The notes under the pieces were generated by a model that made no database searches, was not told the origin of the DNA, and saw only the letters and a program-made list of their open reading frames with translations. A stretch of 64,000 bases of DNA, taken from the NCBI RefSeq assembly GCF_001984035.1, contig NZ_CP019449.1, forward strand, positions 2,790,001-2,854,000. The letters run 5' to 3'. How positions within the stretch are numbered: the first letter of the stretch is position 1; each line of letters starts with the position of its first letter. Below, piece by piece: positions 3,104 to 7,979 of this stretch. The stretch is from Sphingopyxis sp. QXT-31 (lineage in GTDB: Bacteria > Pseudomonadota > Alphaproteobacteria > Sphingomonadales > Sphingomonadaceae). Made by a program: the position numbers and the translations under genes.

Positions 3104-3514
3104 TCAGCCGGCGGCGAGACGCCGCGCGGTGTCCTGGACAAGCGCGATCATGTTGGGGACGCCCTGGGTGCGGTTCGACGACAGCTGGCGCGTGAGGTCG
3201 AAGGGGGCGAGCGCGGCGGCGACGTCCATCGCCGCGACCTCGGCAGCGGGCCGGTCCTGCACCGCGGCGAGGACGAGCGCGACGATGCCCTTGGTGATCG
3301 CGGCATTGCTGTCGGCGAGGAAGTGGAGGCGGCCGTCGGCTTGCGGCACCGGATAGACCCAGACGCTGGCGCTGCAGCCGCGGACCAGCGTGGCGTCGGT
3401 CTTCAGCGCGTCGGGCATAGGGTCGAGGCTGCGCCCGAGGTCGATCAGCAGGCGATAGCGATCGTCGCCGTCCAGAAAGTCATATTCTTCGAAGATATCG
3501 TCGAGGCTGCGCAT
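3104..3514 (-). CDS. sufE: SufE family sulfur-acceptor protein
   Basis: A 136-residue protein of the usual SufE length. SufE accepts persulfide sulfur from the cysteine desulfurase SufS and passes it on for Fe-S cluster assembly in the cytoplasm. The signature VRGCSASVW places the sulfur-accepting cysteine at residue 47, after a start MRSLDDIFEEYDFL typical of the family. No other suf gene is nearby, so it stands apart from the main SUF operon. It lies downstream of the psp gene array on the same strand, separated from it by palindromic repeats, so co-transcription with psp seems unlikely. Confidence 0.93.
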   Translation of the reverse strand: MRSLDDIFEEYDFLDGDDRYRLLIDLGRSLDPMPDALKTDATLVRGCSASVWVYPVPQADGRLHFLADSNAAITKGIVALVLAAVQDRPAAEVAAMDVAAALAPFDLTRQLSSNRTQGVPNMIALVQDTARRLAAG

Positions 3515-3671: not shown

Positions 3672-3920
3672 TTAGAGATCCACCCCCGCCGCGATCGCTT
3701 CGAGTTTGCGCAGCCGTTCCTTGAGGTCGGCGATCTCGATGCGCGAGCCGGCGTGCGGGACGGTGGCGTCGTGCGCGACGGTGGCGACATGGCCGGCGGC
3801 GAGTTCGTCGCGCTTGAGCTGGATCCAGTCGCGCCAGCCGCGGAGCGCGACGAGGCTGACGATCGCCAGCGCGCTGAGCGCGACCGCGGCGGCGGTGAGG
3901 TCGGGAGTGATGAAAGCCAT
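3672..3920 (-). CDS. Small membrane/coiled-coil protein, last gene of psp array
   Basis: An 82-residue protein with an N-terminal hydrophobic segment (about residues 9-27, AAAVALSALAIVSLVAL), a charged middle, and a short C-terminal helix with LKERLRKLEAIA. That ending resembles, in weaker form, the ERIxVLERI ending of its upstream neighbours. It starts 30 bases after the preceding gene on the same strand and is the fifth small gene after pspC. Function unknown; probably a membrane-anchored partner in the phage-shock response. This is inferred from position and layout, not from a recognised domain. Confidence 0.7.
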   Translation of the reverse strand: MAFITPDLTAAAVALSALAIVSLVALRGWRDWIQLKRDELAAGHVATVAHDATVPHAGSRIEIADLKERLRKLEAIAAGVDL

Positions 3921-3950
3921 GAGCGTTGCTCCTTTGTCGGCGTTCGGGTC

Positions 3951-4214
3951 TTACGGGCGGTCGCGCAGCCGCTCGATCTGTTCGTCGAGGGTCGCGGCGC
4001 GGTTGCCGTCGGTGGCGATGCGTTCGAGCACCTGGATACGCTCCTTGAGCGCGCGGATTTCGGCGAGCAGGGCCTTGGTCTCTTCCTTGTCGGCGGCATT
4101 GCCGACGAAATATTCATTGCCCTTGTTGTCGCGGCGGATGCCATGCTTGGCCTTGATGATCCCGCCGATCGTCACGATGAGGACGATACCGATGACCATT
4201 TCAAACGGACCCAT
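3951..4214 (-). CDS. PspB-like small membrane protein (array member 4)
   Basis: An 87-residue protein with one N-terminal membrane helix (MVIGIVLIVTIGGII), then IKAKHGI, a hydrophilic linker, and a C-terminal coiled coil ALKERIQVLERIATD...LDEQIERLRD. The RI-x-VLERI-x-T/D motif is the hallmark of PspB C-termini, and the KHG piece recalls members 1 and 2 of the array. It starts 23 bases after its upstream neighbour and ends 30 bases before the next gene. Function not established; read as a PspB-derived paralogue co-transcribed with the psp operon. Confidence 0.78.
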   Translation of the reverse strand: MGPFEMVIGIVLIVTIGGIIKAKHGIRRDNKGNEYFVGNAADKEETKALLAEIRALKERIQVLERIATDGNRAATLDEQIERLRDRP

Positions 4215-4237
4215 GGGGGAGGCTCCTTTTCTTCGTT

Positions 4238-4501
4238 TCAGTTGAGCGGCGCGTCGCGCAGCTTTTCGATCTCGTCGGCGACATCAATTCCCTTGTCGGT
4301 AACGATGCGCTCGAGGACACGGACGCGTTGCTCCAGCCGTTCGGTCTGCGCCGCATATTGCGCTGCTTTCTCGGCCGTCTCGCTCGTGATGGCCTTGAAC
4401 TGCCGCTCCTTGAACTTGAGGTGGCGCTCATAGGCCGCGTAACCGATGCCGAGCGTGACGGGCAGCCCGACGACGATGAAGAGGATGAGAATCGTTTCCA
4501 T
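4238..4501 (-). CDS. PspB-like small membrane protein (array member 3)
   Basis: An 87-residue protein. It has an N-terminal membrane segment (ILILFIVVGLPVTLGIGYAAY), a long charged helix KERQFKAITSETAEKAAQYA, then LEQRVRVLERIVTDKG...VADEIEKLRD. The RVRVLERIVTD motif closely matches the PspB-type ending of the neighbouring genes. It begins 10 bases after the preceding gene. The predicted form is a single-pass inner-membrane protein with a cytoplasmic coiled coil. Specific role unknown. Confidence 0.8.
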   Translation of the reverse strand: METILILFIVVGLPVTLGIGYAAYERHLKFKERQFKAITSETAEKAAQYAAQTERLEQRVRVLERIVTDKGIDVADEIEKLRDAPLN

Positions 4502-4511
4502 GTCCGGTCCC

Positions 4512-4829
4512 TCAGTTCGCGGGGCGCCGCAGCGCCTCGATCTCGTGGCTCAGCCGGTTGCCTTCGTCGGTGACAATGCGTTCGATCACCGCGAGCCGGT
4601 CCTTGACCGAGCCCAGTTCGGCGCGGAGCTGGGCGTTTTCCTGGCTGATCAGCTTGACGCGTTCCATCGCCTCGTCGCTGGTCTTTGGATAGACCGCCTT
4701 GCCCCAGCTGTTCTCGAGCGGGTAGCCGTTCTTAACGCGGAGCCAGGTGGTGAAGACCCAGCCACCGACCCCGGCCAGGCCGACGATCGCGGCGACGGGG
4801 GCAAAGGCATTGAAGAAATCGAGATCCAT
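4512..4829 (-). CDS. PspB-like small membrane protein (array member 2)
   Basis: A 105-residue protein with one membrane helix near residues 8-30, then GGWVFTTWLRVKNGYPLEN, a linker, and a C-terminal coiled coil with KDRLAVIERIVTDEGNRLSHEIEALR. It is a clear paralogue of the gene immediately upstream: both carry GGW-(M/V)-FTTW-(I/L)-R-x-K-(H/N)-GYP-(V/L)-EN. It starts 11 bases after that gene and ends 10 bases before the next. The shared block after the membrane helix is not part of PspB or PspC as I know them and may define a separate small family. Confidence 0.82.
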   Translation of the reverse strand: MDLDFFNAFAPVAAIVGLAGVGGWVFTTWLRVKNGYPLENSWGKAVYPKTSDEAMERVKLISQENAQLRAELGSVKDRLAVIERIVTDEGNRLSHEIEALRRPAN

Positions 4830-4840
4830 GATGTGTCCCC

Positions 4841-5140
4841 TCAGCGCAGGCGGTCGATCTGGTCGGCGAGCTGCGCGGCCTGGCCGTTGGTTTCGGTCGC
4901 GATGCGTTCGAGCACCGAAATCCGTTCCTCGAGCCGGCCGATCTGGCTGGCGAGCTTGGCATTGTCGTCGGTCAAGAGCTTGATTTTTCGATCAGCGTCG
5001 GGGTCGGTTCGATGAACCGTGCCGCCCCATTCATTCTCGACCGGATAGCCATGCTTGGCGCGGATCCAGGTGGTGAACATCCAGCCGCCGATCGACAATG
5101 CGATGATGGCGAGGACGAAACCGGTTCCACCGAAATTCAT
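4841..5140 (-). CDS. PspB-like small membrane protein (array member 1)
   Basis: A 99-residue protein with an N-terminal membrane helix (GFVLAIIALSIGGWMF), the block TTWIRAKHGYPVENEWGG, then a coiled coil reaching LEERISVLERIATETNG...LADQIDRLR. The ending combines the PspB-type VLERI motif with the ADQIDRLR tail, which is close to the ADEIDSLR at the end of the PspC in this operon. It is the first of five small genes after pspC, with a 31-base gap. Probably a duplicated and diverged phage-shock membrane component; function unknown. Confidence 0.82.
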   Translation of the reverse strand: MNFGGTGFVLAIIALSIGGWMFTTWIRAKHGYPVENEWGGTVHRTDPDADRKIKLLTDDNAKLASQIGRLEERISVLERIATETNGQAAQLADQIDRLR

Positions 5141-5171: not shown

Positions 5172-5552
5172 TCAGCGCAGGCTGTCGATCTCGTCGGCGA
5201 GGCGACGGTTGTGGCTGGTGTAGTACATCTCGATGTCGGCGAGCCGGCGGTCGATGTCGCGGAAGCGCGAGCGGATATCGCGGGTCGAAGCGGCGGGGTT
5301 CGAGCGCACGCCCTGCCAGAACTTCGCTTCCTCCCTCGAGCCGTAGAGCGCGAAAGGCTTGGGCGTCCCCATCCAGGCGACCATCCAGTAAGCGATCAGC
5401 GTCCAGGGGAAGCCGCCCATCAGCGTGAGCAGGACGGCGCCGACGCGGACCCAGAGCACATCGACCCCGCTATAGTCGGCGATCCCCGCGCACACGCCGC
5501 TCCATTTGGCGTTCTGCTTGTCGAGGTAGAATTTGGTGCGGCTGGCAGACAT
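5172..5552 (-). CDS. pspC: Phage shock protein C (PspC-domain)
   Basis: A 126-residue inner-membrane protein. Residues 6-60 form a PspC domain: FYLDKQNAKWSGVCAGIADY, then VDVLWVRVGAVLLTL and a second hydrophobic stretch. In enterobacteria PspB and PspC sense inner-membrane damage and bind PspA, which frees PspF. The C-terminal part is a soluble coiled coil with RRLADIEMYYTSHNRRLADEIDSLR-type sequence, similar to the tails of the small proteins downstream. It starts one base after the pspB stop, so the two are probably translationally coupled. Confidence 0.93.
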   Translation of the reverse strand: MSASRTKFYLDKQNAKWSGVCAGIADYSGVDVLWVRVGAVLLTLMGGFPWTLIAYWMVAWMGTPKPFALYGSREEAKFWQGVRSNPAASTRDIRSRFRDIDRRLADIEMYYTSHNRRLADEIDSLR

Positions 5553-5553
5553 C

Positions 5554-5826
5554 TCAGTTCCTCCTGGTCATTTCGAGCTGCGCCAGATCTTCATCGCTGC
5601 GAACCGCGGGGCGGAAATCGGGATGGTCGGCGCTGATGATGCGTTCGACGGTGTGGAGCCGGTTCTCGAGCCGGCGGGCGGTGTCGTAGAGTTCGTCGAG
5701 CAGCTGCTCATCTTCTCCGGTCAGCGTCTTGGCCTGCTTCCACTTGGTGACATAGTGGAGGATCAGCCAGGGCAGACCGAGGAAGAGCGTGCCGATAACG
5801 ATCGGGACAATGATCACTTCTTCCAT
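5554..5826 (-). CDS. pspB: Phage shock protein B
   Basis: A 90-residue protein of near-usual PspB length. One membrane helix (about residues 4-25, IIVPIVIGTLFLGLPWLILHY) is followed by a cytoplasmic coiled coil with ARRLENRLHTVERIISADHPDFR, matching the PspB signature RxxTLERIL-x-x-HPxWR. PspB partners PspC in sensing envelope stress. It lies 12 bases after pspA and 1 base before pspC, an operon order pspA-pspB-pspC as in Escherichia coli. Confidence 0.93.
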   Translation of the reverse strand: MEEVIIVPIVIGTLFLGLPWLILHYVTKWKQAKTLTGEDEQLLDELYDTARRLENRLHTVERIISADHPDFRPAVRSDEDLAQLEMTRRN

Positions 5827-5838
5827 CGGTCCGACTCC

Positions 5839-6501
5839 TTAGTTCTTGCCCTGCGCGGCCTTCAGCGCGGCGAGTTCGTCGGCGACCTTGTCGGCGGCCT
5901 GCAGCTCGGCGATCTCCTCGTCGAGCGACTTCTTGTAGCCCAGGCCGAGCGCATCGGCACGGCCTTCGGCCTCGTCGACGCGGCGCTCGAGTATCTCGAA
6001 ACGCGAGAAGGCATCTTCGACGCGGTCGCCGTTGGTCATCTCGCGCAGCTTGTAGCGATTCTCGGCGCTTTCGAGGCGGTTGACGACGCTCGACTGGCGC
6101 GCGCGCGCTTCGCTGAGCTTCTTCTGCAGCTTGGCGATATCGGCTTCATAACCCGCGAGCGCCTCGTCGAGGACCGCGATCTCGCTCTTCAGCCGTTCGG
6201 CCATGTCGCCGGCCTTCTGCTTTTCGACGAGCGCGGCGGTGGCGAGGTCTTCGCGGTCCTTCGACAGCGCGAGTTCGGCCTTTTCCTTCCAGCTGTCCTG
6301 CAGGCTTTCGAGCTTGGCGATGTGGCGGCGCATTTCCTTCTGGTCCGCGATGGTGCGGGCGGCGGAAGCGCGAACTTCGACCAGCGTCTCGTTCATCTCG
6401 AAGATGATCTGGCGGATCATCTTTTCGGGATCCTCGGCGCGGTCGAGCAGGTCGGTGACGTTGGCGGCGATGATGTCGCGGGTGCGTGAAAAAATACCCA
6501 T
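5839..6501 (-). CDS. pspA: Phage shock protein A (PspA/IM30 family)
   Basis: A 220-residue, almost wholly helical coiled-coil protein of typical PspA length. It begins MGIFSRTRDIIAANVTDLLD, the family start with an amphipathic helix that binds membrane, and has the conserved EDPEKMIRQIIFEMNETL. PspA is an ESCRT-III-like membrane-stabilising protein and, when unoccupied, inhibits PspF. The start has a good ribosome site (AGGAG nine bases upstream). It lies downstream of a hairpin/T-run and of the sigma-54-driven 57-residue ORF, so its transcription probably involves read-through. Confidence 0.96.
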   Translation of the reverse strand: MGIFSRTRDIIAANVTDLLDRAEDPEKMIRQIIFEMNETLVEVRASAARTIADQKEMRRHIAKLESLQDSWKEKAELALSKDREDLATAALVEKQKAGDMAERLKSEIAVLDEALAGYEADIAKLQKKLSEARARQSSVVNRLESAENRYKLREMTNGDRVEDAFSRFEILERRVDEAEGRADALGLGYKKSLDEEIAELQAADKVADELAALKAAQGKN

Positions 6502-6542: not shown

Positions 6543-6594
6543 AAAAAATGCTGGTGCCGGGGCGGGGCAAGGGGGGAGAGTGCCCCGGCACCAG
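6543..6594 (-). terminator. Hairpin plus T-run (attenuator-like) ahead of pspA
   Basis: A perfect 13-bp stem (CTGGTGCCGGGGC paired with GCCCCGGCACCAG) encloses a C-rich loop and, on the minus strand, is followed by CATTTTTT. This is a textbook intrinsic-terminator form. It sits between the stop of the 57-residue ORF and pspA, downstream of the sigma-54 promoter, so it could limit how much psp transcript reaches pspA or mark the 3' end of a short abundant RNA. Confidence 0.75.
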
Positions 6595-6600
6595 TGCCGG

Positions 6601-6774
6601 TCAAGCCATCGGGCTGACCGCCGGGGTTGCTGCAGCGGCCGCCAGCGCCATCCCGCCCGGGGAAGCGGCGATGTCGAAGGCGACTTTGGGCTGGTCGATC
6701 ACGCCGACGAGGATCGCCAGAGCGCCGGTCGCGCTGAGCGCGAAGGTGGTGGCCTGGGCAAATATCGTCTTCAT
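6601..6774 (-). CDS. 57-residue hydrophobic protein, first gene of psp operon
   Basis: A small ORF that encodes a 57-residue protein starting MKTIFAQATTFALSATGALA and continuing ILVGVIDQPK, then an alanine-rich end. One hydrophobic segment spans about residues 9-25; it could be a membrane anchor or an uncleaved signal. The start has AGGGAC a few bases upstream. It is the first ORF after the predicted sigma-54 promoter and is separated from pspA by a terminator-like hairpin. I do not recognise the family. A stress-induced membrane micropeptide is a reasonable guess from position alone. Confidence 0.6.
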   Translation of the reverse strand: MKTIFAQATTFALSATGALAILVGVIDQPKVAFDIAASPGGMALAAAAATPAVSPMA

Positions 6775-6831: not shown

Positions 6832-6848
6832 TGCAGGGGGCGTGCCAA
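6832..6848 (-). promoter_or_regulatory. Sigma-54 promoter of the psp operon
   Basis: On the minus strand the sequence is TTGGCACGCCCCCTGCA, with GG and GC at the -24/-12 positions and near-perfect agreement with TGGCACG-N4-TTGCW. It lies 58 bases upstream of the 57-residue ORF and points into the psp operon, opposite to pspF, a sigma-54 activator gene. This is the arrangement known for psp loci. Confidence 0.88.
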
Positions 6849-6911: not shown

Positions 6912-6948
6912 TTGCCAATCAGCGGGAAAATTTGCCAATCATTGGGAA
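6912..6948. promoter_or_regulatory. Putative PspF upstream activating sites (two repeats)
   Basis: Two direct repeats of TTGCCAATCANNGGGAA begin at 6912 and 6932, exactly 20 bp (two helical turns) apart. The second contains the perfect palindrome CCAATCATTGG (6935-6945). They lie 64-100 bp upstream of the sigma-54 promoter and run up to the pspF start codon, so PspF bound here could both activate psp and repress its own gene. A 9-bp inverted repeat (AATTGTCCG at 6847-6855, CGGACAATT at 6899-6907) lies between these sites and the promoter. Function inferred. Confidence 0.6.
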
Positions 6949-7979
6949 TGGAGCGCGAAACGCAATTTATCGGCCAGTCGGCGGCCTTCCAGGATGCGGT
7001 CGAACGCGCCAGCCTCGCGGCGTCGCTCGACCGGCCGGTCCTGATCATCGGAGAGCGCGGCACGGGCAAGGAGCTGATCGCCGAGCGCCTGCACCGGCTG
7101 TCGACGCGCTGGGACCGCCCCTATGTGATCATGAACTGCGCCGCGATGCCCGAGACGCTGATCGAGAGCGAGCTGTTCGGGCACGAGGCGGGCGCCTTCA
7201 CCGGCGCGACGCGGACGCGTGCGGGACGCTTCGAAGAGGCCGACGGCGGCACGCTCTTCCTCGACGAGCTGGCGACGATGTCGATGGGCGCGCAGGAGCG
7301 GCTGCTGCGCGCGGTCGAATATGGCGAGGTCACCCGCGTCGGCTCGTCGCGCCCGATCCGCGTCGACGTGCGCATCGTCGCGGCGACCAACGAACATCTG
7401 CCCGCGCTGGTCGACGACAATCGGTTCCGCGCCGACTTGCTCGACCGGCTGTCGTTCGAGGTCATCACCCTGCCCCCGCTGCGCGCGCGCGAGGGCGATA
7501 TCGAGGTGCTGGCCGAATATTTCGGGACGCGCATGGCGGCGGTGCTCGGCTGGGACGAATGGCCGGGCTTCGGCCCGCGCGCGCTTGCGGCGATGGAGGG
7601 GCACGACTGGCCCGGCAATGTCCGCGAGCTCCGCAATGTGATCGAGCGCGGCATCTATCGCTGGGCCGACCCGTCGAAGCCCGTCGATGCGCTGAGCTTC
7701 GATCCCTTCGCGAGTCCCTGGCAGCCGGCGGTGCGCAAGCCCACCGCCATGACCGAAGCGGCCAAACTGCCCGCGGGCACGCCTGCCGAAGCGCCCACGC
7801 CCGCCGCGCCGCCGTCGGGGGCGGTGACCGACCTCCGCGCGACGGTCGATGCCTATGAAAAGCAGATCTTGGCCGACACCATGGCGCGCTGCCGCTTCAA
7901 CCAGAAGATCGCCGCCGAAGCGCTGGGACTGAGCTACGACCAGATCCGCCATGCGCTCAAGAAGCATGGGCTGAATTGA
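6948..7979 (+). CDS. pspF: Phage shock operon transcriptional activator PspF
   Basis: A 343-residue sigma-54 enhancer-binding protein with no N-terminal receiver domain, as in PspF. It has Walker A GERGTGKE (about residues 35-42), the sigma-54-contacting loop GAFTGA (about 82-87), and a C-terminal Fis-type helix-turn-helix (KIAAEALGLSYDQIRHALKK). A proline/alanine-rich linker separates the AAA+ and DNA-binding domains. The ATG at 6948 is preferred because the homology begins there; the frame is open to a TTG at 6912 that has no ribosome site. It is divergent from the psp operon, which it should activate, and PspA should inhibit it. Confidence 0.95.
   Translation: MERETQFIGQSAAFQDAVERASLAASLDRPVLIIGERGTGKELIAERLHRLSTRWDRPYVIMNCAAMPETLIESELFGHEAGAFTGATRTRAGRFEEADGGTLFLDELATMSMGAQERLLRAVEYGEVTRVGSSRPIRVDVRIVAATNEHLPALVDDNRFRADLLDRLSFEVITLPPLRAREGDIEVLAEYFGTRMAAVLGWDEWPGFGPRALAAMEGHDWPGNVRELRNVIERGIYRWADPSKPVDALSFDPFASPWQPAVRKPTAMTEAAKLPAGTPAEAPTPAAPPSGAVTDLRATVDAYEKQILADTMARCRFNQKIAAEALGLSYDQIRHALKKHGLN

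Follow-up and report, generated by a model that had tools for sequence, protein, structure and literature searches.

What are the five short genes that follow pspA, pspB and pspC in the phage shock (psp) operon of Sphingopyxis sp. QXT-31, and what could their products do there? To our knowledge, it is still an open question how PspB and PspC signal membrane damage to PspA. The five genes, here called g1 to g5, lie in the window, the whole stretch of 64,000 nucleotides that was analysed. A sequence-only reading of the window had proposed that duplication of a PspB-type sensor module produced a multi-sensor array for envelope stress. In this study, the array itself was confirmed, and it is wider in occurrence than that reading could tell.

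Gene organization of the psp locus

The host genome is a single contig of 4.285 Mb; ranked by the identity of g2, the closest named genomes are Sphingopyxis, the best at 96%. Open reading frame (ORF) calls and profile matches gave the minus-strand order pspA-pspB-pspC-g1-g2-g3-g4-g5 and placed sufE after this run and pspF ahead of it in divergent orientation. The features are as follows, with single transmembrane (TM) segments given as predictions.

6912..7979, plus strand: pspF, divergent sigma-54 activator (TIGR02974, 472.2 bits; cut-off 443.55)
6832..6847, minus strand: sigma-54 -24/-12 site TGGCACGCCCCCTGCA, ahead of the whole operon
6601..6774, minus strand: small leader gene (ORF), 57 aa, one hydrophobic segment, first after the promoter
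6551..6594, minus strand: 13-bp GC-rich hairpin then T6, attenuator-like, in the leader/pspA interval (fold z-score -1.57)
5839..6501, minus strand: pspA (TIGR02977, 272.4 bits, above the cut-off of 242.95)
5554..5826, minus strand: pspB (PF06667, 98.3 bits, above the cut-off of 25.6)
5172..5552, minus strand: pspC (PF04024, 56.8 bits, and TIGR02978, 117.8 bits, both above cut-off)
5175..5261, minus strand: tail of PspC, residues 98-126
4841..5140, minus strand: g1, 99 aa, single TM segment, PspC/PspB-like tail at about 4844-4930
4512..4829, minus strand: g2, 105 aa, single TM segment, GYPLEN linker, tail at about 4527-4604
4238..4501, minus strand: g3, 87 aa, single TM segment, tail at about 4256-4333
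3951..4214, minus strand: g4, 87 aa, single TM segment, tail at about 3963-4046
3672..3920, minus strand: g5, 82 aa, single TM segment, C-terminal end ADLKERLRKLEAIAAGVDL, last of the run
3104..3514, minus strand: sufE-like gene, outside the array, 157 nt past g5 (PF02657, 114.3 bits)

The intergenic gaps were 31 nt between pspC and g1 and then 11, 10, 23 and 30 nt through g5, so that the description of five small co-directional genes downstream of pspA-pspB-pspC, with gaps of 10-31 bases, was borne out by gene order and spacing. All five genes start with ATG, each preceded by a purine-rich stretch, and their third-position GC was 0.78-0.89, compared with 0.79-0.91 in pspA, pspB and pspC. Between the window and a same-genus genome, the dN/dS values of g1 to g5 were 0.09, 0.22, 0.52, 0.40 and 0.13, respectively.

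Neither the sigma-54 site nor the leader gene at 6601-6774 had been part of the sequence-only description. A sigma-54 promoter, an adjacent pspF and tightly spaced co-directional genes behind the site give the locus the make-up of a PspF regulon and support the earlier view of an operon-like unit, and we believe that g1-g5 are probably co-transcribed with the psp genes. At the psp loci of the family surveyed below, a sigma-54 site with a score of at least 13 (maximum 15.2) stood ahead of pspA in 104 of 109 cases, compared with 1 of 108 for an equal-length stretch after pspC; with a threshold of at least 12, the counts were 105 and 19. An ORF with a Shine-Dalgarno sequence was present between this site and pspA at 94 of the 109 loci, 93 of them with a hydrophobic 19-mer, and its length was 39-74 aa in 83 loci and 121-173 aa in 11. 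At E 0.1, Pfam gave no match for the leader gene of the window. One of the long forms (locus L126) was tested, and it carried TonB C-terminal domains above the Pfam cut-off. A similar terminator-like hairpin with T6 was seen in a same-genus locus (L112) and is not general. A conserved attenuator between the leader gene and pspA was rejected, a scan having found any hairpin at 19 of the 109 loci, many of them weak.

Four of the five proteins had been said to carry a PspB-like ending, and the motif is indeed found in g1 (ERISVLERIAT), g2 (DRLAVIERIVT), g3 (QRVRVLERIVT) and g4 (ERIQVLERIAT); g5 is without the ERI-x-T motif, and its C-terminal end is ERLRKLEAIAAGVDL. Two other details held as well: GGWxFTTWxRxKxGYPxEN is shared by g1 (GGWMFTTWIRAKHGYPVEN) and g2 (GGWVFTTWLRVKNGYPLEN), and the tail end LADQIDRLR of g1 has its counterpart in PspC, RLADEIDSLR. 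From hydrophobicity and charge, all classes of array protein are predicted to have a single N-terminal TM segment and a C-terminal cytoplasmic helix, and positive charges were in the majority after the TM segment in 426 of 433 classified proteins. Among g1-g5, AF2 support for this architecture comes from g2, modelled as helix 3-34, a loop and helix 52-104 (mean pLDDT 84, pTM 0.39). The PspC tail was modelled as helices 86-114 and 116-125 (mean pLDDT 79).

Distribution and paralogue classes in the sphingomonads

A sample of 119 genomes of the family (sphingomonads) was searched with PF06667, and 109 had a PspB above the cut-off. Matches to pspF, pspA, pspB and pspC were found in all 109 psp regions, and sufE in 97. 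Array genes were called at 106 of the 109 loci and thus stand next to pspA in nearly all relatives. This count is a lower bound, because the array of locus L060 (G068) was missed by the caller, the g4 profile giving five matches in that genome and making it the 107th, and because at L129 the contig breaks off within pspC. The third locus with a zero count, L052, is the one clear exception that has the psp genes without the array, with 57 nt from pspC to sufE. The array comprised 0 genes in 3 loci (including the caller miss), 1 in 6, 2 in 7, 3 in 15, 4 in 35, 5 in 27, 6 in 9, 7 in 6 and 8 in 1; the median gap was 14 nt, and overlaps made up 126 of 337 gaps.

Of the 456 small genes called after pspC, 433 were classified (g1 57, g2 73, g3 108, g4 101 and g5 94) and 23 were left out of the class counts. 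The order was regular: g5 was the final classified gene at all 94 loci that have it, g4 stood immediately before it in 88 of these, and the g4 class occurred at 99 of the 106 loci where at least one gene was classified. A tree was built from 179 array proteins together with seven relatives from outside and was rooted on g5; in it, the clades of g2 (34/34) and g5 (34/34) were complete, 39 of 40 g4 proteins fell in a clade of 41, and the clades of g1 (30/36) and g3 (29/35) were partial. The support values, listed after the clades of g2, g5, g4, g1 and g3, were 0.998, 0.473, 0.879, 0.744 and 0.868; the deep branching is unreliable because the alignment is short.

In its own genome, the g4 profile found g1, g3 and g2 at E 2e-12 to 6e-11, followed by g5 (0.185), an unrelated place (0.208) and pspC (0.40), and pspB was not listed at E 10. 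A single g3 sequence listed pspB at E 0.009, behind g2, g1 and g4, and the only significant match of the g5 profile was g5 itself. The matches among g1-g4 are beyond chance, and these four are old paralogues; g5 stays outside in these searches.

Similarity to PspC and PspB

The profiles were compared by hhalign, each pair being set against 100 column shuffles that preserve the heptad pattern, and 24 FtsB proteins served as the control. Against PspC, g1-g4 scored 35.6-47.2 with a probability of 85-95%, and the top shuffle of any pair was 33.3. Against PspB, the scores of g1, g2, g3 and g4 were 37.8, 31.8, 33.1 and 28.2 (probability 64-91%) and the top shuffles were 29.8, 25.1, 32.9 and 27.4, respectively, which leaves narrow margins for g3 and g4. 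No shuffle out of 100 reached the real score in any pair of g1-g4 with PspC or PspB. Comparison of the FtsB control with g1-g5 gave scores of 16.5-24.4, with a probability of 2-26% for g1-g4, and a generic coiled coil as the source of the likeness was weakened by the shuffles and this control. By profile comparison, the tails of g1-g4 are most like the C-terminus of PspC and second most like PspB. The aligned stretch was short in several comparisons (24-35 columns), and PspB aligned with PspC at a score of 24.7 (probability 21%) through the TM part, not the tail.

The result for g5 was different. It did not rise beyond the shuffles against PspB (25 of 100 reached its score) or PspC (84 of 100), whereas its score with g3 and with g4 was 39.6 in both cases (top shuffles 35.0 and 29.3); by these profiles it joins the group solely through these two. 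Profile similarity to PspB is thus present in g1-g4 and absent in g5.

None of g1-g5 reached the curated PspB cut-offs (25.6 and 51.7 bits). PF06667 gave 18.4 bits for g3 and 11.4 for g4, with no match for g1, g2 and g5 at E 1, and TIGR02976 gave 13.5, 18.4 and 16.2 bits for g1, g3 and g4. With TIGR02978, g3 had 22.6 bits (E 7.6e-5) against a cut-off of 104 and g2 (E 0.014) was also far below, and the PspC domain PF04024 had no match in g1-g5. Likeness to the PspC tail, which g1-g4 have and g5 lacks, does not define the family by itself. Because none of the five reaches a PspB or PspC cut-off, we regard them, from these profile scores, as relatives and not members of the two families. When members of the classes were scanned one by one, the commonest Pfam match of the g3 set was PF06667 (7 of 35 at E 0.01) and the commonest NCBIfam match of the g4 set was TIGR02976 (12 of 40); g5 members matched only LapA_dom (3 of 34). 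In other genomes, second copies exceeded the PF06667 cut-off in G058 (27.5) and G031 (26.2), and that of G080 scored 25.4 alone and 26.1 with its frame neighbours.

Relatives outside the family and outside psp operons

Within the order, the g4 profile had matches in 77 of 99 genomes, comprising 26 of 26 in the family (at least two matches each) and 51 of 73 in other families (one or two). In the searches of the class and the phylum, at most 18 candidates were scored per genome, and the counts are lower bounds: the g4 profile matched at least 7 of 289 genomes of the class, four of them of the family, and a profile of 16 outside proteins, run on 299 genomes of the phylum, matched at least 27 (13 from the family, 2 from elsewhere in the class and 12 outside the class).

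Some of these relatives accompany psp genes and others do not. For example, four loci of family f8 have the order pspA-pspB-pspC-short PspC-g4-like, and three more loci of f8 and the loci of f2, f5, f6 and f7 carry g4-like genes and show no psp gene in the stretch examined. Relatives of g4 outside psp operons thus occur in other families of the order, and they also occur in some genomes of another class. In four loci (L324, L326, L327 and L335), a gene for a tail-less PspC-like protein of 75-84 aa lies between pspC and the g4-like gene. An orphan gene in G079 (L336, 1785-2174) encodes a protein whose N-terminal part resembles a zinc ribbon (DUF6487, slightly under the cut-off) and whose tail is g1-like, with no psp gene in view, and outside the class a tandem pair of tail proteins stands next to unrelated genes (L354, 1185-1734). 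Before 16 relatives outside the family array, one sigma-54 site was clearly above shuffles (L325, 3/200). The stand-alone profile has 120 listed relatives, and five of them (P0164, P0175, P0188, P0226 and P0235) carry a precomputed Pfam PspB assignment. The array proteins have so far been largely invisible because the source names given among the listed relatives are mostly 'hypothetical protein'. In view of the stand-alone relatives, a separate small-protein family may have been recruited into the psp operon.

Association with PspA

Ten of the 119 family genomes had no PspB above the cut-off, and PspA (PF04012) was found in two of them, G040 and G065, the match in G065 being of 42.4 bits on a separate contig. 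The ten genomes were searched for the array with the g3 profile, which a lone g5 would escape, and array members were found in three (G040, G065 and G082). By this profile, no array match was obtained in seven of the eight family genomes without detected PspA; the eighth, G082, had six array matches, no PspA was found in it, and the genome is 66% complete. Across the 119 genomes, the array was present in 108 of 111 with PspA compared with 1 of 8 without (Fisher p 1.7e-8). The locus of G040 (L337) contains pspA, a tail-less PspC of 88 aa, g3 and g4, with no pspF within the 8 kb searched and no PspB above the cut-off in the genome.

Possible roles of the array

The putative leucine zipper of PspC has been identified as a determinant of its interaction with PspA (PMC3068692), and in E. 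coli and Yersinia the binding of PspA has been linked to the C-terminal region of PspC. In this study, we believe, with a probability of about one half, that g1-g4 are additional PspA-docking anchors or adaptors that have PspC-like tails, with a membrane and linker part particular to each. The psp operon would then yield a set of inner-membrane proteins, old paralogues that cross the membrane once, from the PspF/sigma-54 promoter common to PspA, PspB and PspC, with the N-terminus out and the C-terminus cytoplasmic, as predicted by the positive-inside rule. The cytoplasmic end of g1-g4 would be a helical tail resembling the PspC C-terminus; this common tail would contact PspA (or the PspB-PspC coiled coil), and the differing membrane segments and linkers may carry it to different membrane states or partners. 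Some role may also fall to g5. We favour the anchors because the published tie between the PspC tail and PspA goes together with the tail on g1-g4, and because the promoter of PspA is shared and the array is missing in seven of eight genomes without detected PspA. The G040 locus, with array genes and pspA beside a tail-less PspC and no PspB above the cut-off, also supports the anchors. Counted against them are the narrow PspB margins of g3 and g4, the PspB-PspC alignment through the TM part, the short aligned stretches, the failure of the g4 profile to list pspB and its match to pspC at no better than E 0.40, the scores of g5 within the shuffles against PspB and PspC, the fast change of g3 and g4 (dN/dS 0.52 and 0.40), the exception L052, the array matches of G082 and the g4 relatives outside psp operons.

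We considered other explanations. Each protein could detect its own envelope signal and switch PspA-PspF, which would widen the inputs of the Psp response. In E. coli, PspB and PspC have been described as detecting signals (PMC9239133), and a common tail with different TM and linker parts in lasting paralogue classes would suit such a multi-sensor array. However, the genes lie behind PspF's own promoter, and the amounts of their products should rise after sensing; G040 retains pspA, PspC and the array genes g3 and g4, and the 8 kb searched there contain no pspF; and Pfam and NCBIfam scans recognised no ligand-binding domain in g1-g5 of the window. We consider this explanation rather unlikely.

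The tails could instead form a mixed coiled-coil bundle that sets the size or stability of the PspB-PspC complex, with no contact to PspA. PspB of E. coli self-associates and binds PspC (PMC3068692), and g1-g4 resemble helical segments of both proteins. Such structural subunits seem quite unlikely to us, given that G040 has array genes without a PspB above the cut-off and with a tail-less PspC, and that the array varies from 0 to 8 genes (one zero being the caller miss) despite constant PspB and PspC.

It is similarly improbable that the genes are co-regulated bystanders, a separate family under the psp promoter with another membrane role or other partners, whose tail likeness is remote or convergent. 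The stand-alone relatives, the orphan L336 with its tail of like kind, the lack of any family cut-off reached by g1-g5 of the window and the g4 profile that does not recover PspB in its own genome would fit bystanders; the absence of the array in seven of eight genomes without detected PspA, the similarity beyond the shuffles and the FtsB control, and the five relatives with Pfam PspB speak against them. Duplication of a PspB-type sensor module, as first proposed, is too simple because single relatives stand outside psp operons, and it was rejected as the whole story, since the PspC tail is closer to g1-g4 (35.6-47.2 against 28.2-37.8 for PspB) and g5 matches neither protein directly.

More tentatively, the docking anchors may be taken further to a plug-in Psp system, in which one PspA would be served by many interchangeable PspC-tail anchors tuned by their TM and linker parts to membrane states, the tail being portable; we hold this to be possible and still doubtful. 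If it is true, PspA would be steered to different kinds of damage, and the docking tail would also occur alone and behind a zinc-ribbon-like N-terminus. Operons with up to eight small anchors, the few natural losses and the genome with a tail-less PspC offer natural variants for mapping the part of the tail that meets PspA.

Comparison with known systems

'PspB duplicates' in the psp operon appear in one phrase of Ravi et al. 2024 (PMC11237479) and may be this same array; where that paper speaks of them, it gives neither a number nor a taxon, and it describes no tail analysis and no ordered array. The parts of Popp et al. 2022 (PMC9239133) that bear on Psp proteins do not mention the array, and the literature search found, in the parts of the sources covered, no description of such an array beyond the phrase of Ravi et al. 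Among solved structures, sequence-based profile searches turned up neither PspB nor PspC.

PspD and PspG of E. coli are also small and connected with psp, and PspG is a target of PspF encoded outside the psp operon (PMC9239133). Pfam and NCBIfam matched neither of these families in g1-g5. Outside the order, 18 PspB-positive psp regions were compared, and 17 had no extra tail or PspB genes at E 0.01 in the stretch examined. The remaining one, G376 (L299), encodes, downstream of pspC, an 80-aa PspC-tail-like membrane protein and another PspB. Unlike g1-g5, this second copy is a PspB by Pfam (37.5 bits, above the cut-off), and the operon looks like an independent, smaller enlargement.

PspB (PF06667, TIGR02976) and g1-g4 share the operon and an N-terminal TM segment followed by a helix with R-x(2,3)-(L/I/V)-E-R-I, and more positive charges follow the TM segment in 94 of 109 PspB proteins, as in the array proteins. 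PspB differs in its HY-x-T-K-W, which is missing from g1-g5, and in the end (E/Q/D)I-x-x-L, which is found in 2 of 109 PspB proteins compared with 327 of 339 g1-g4 proteins. PspC shares this end in 108 of 109 proteins, and its tail (about 65-121 of TIGR02978) is, like that of g1-g4, a helix with T-(S/D) and L-x-x-E-I-x-x-L-R. The difference is that PspC has the PF04024 domain, whereas in the array proteins the tail rides on a single predicted TM segment.
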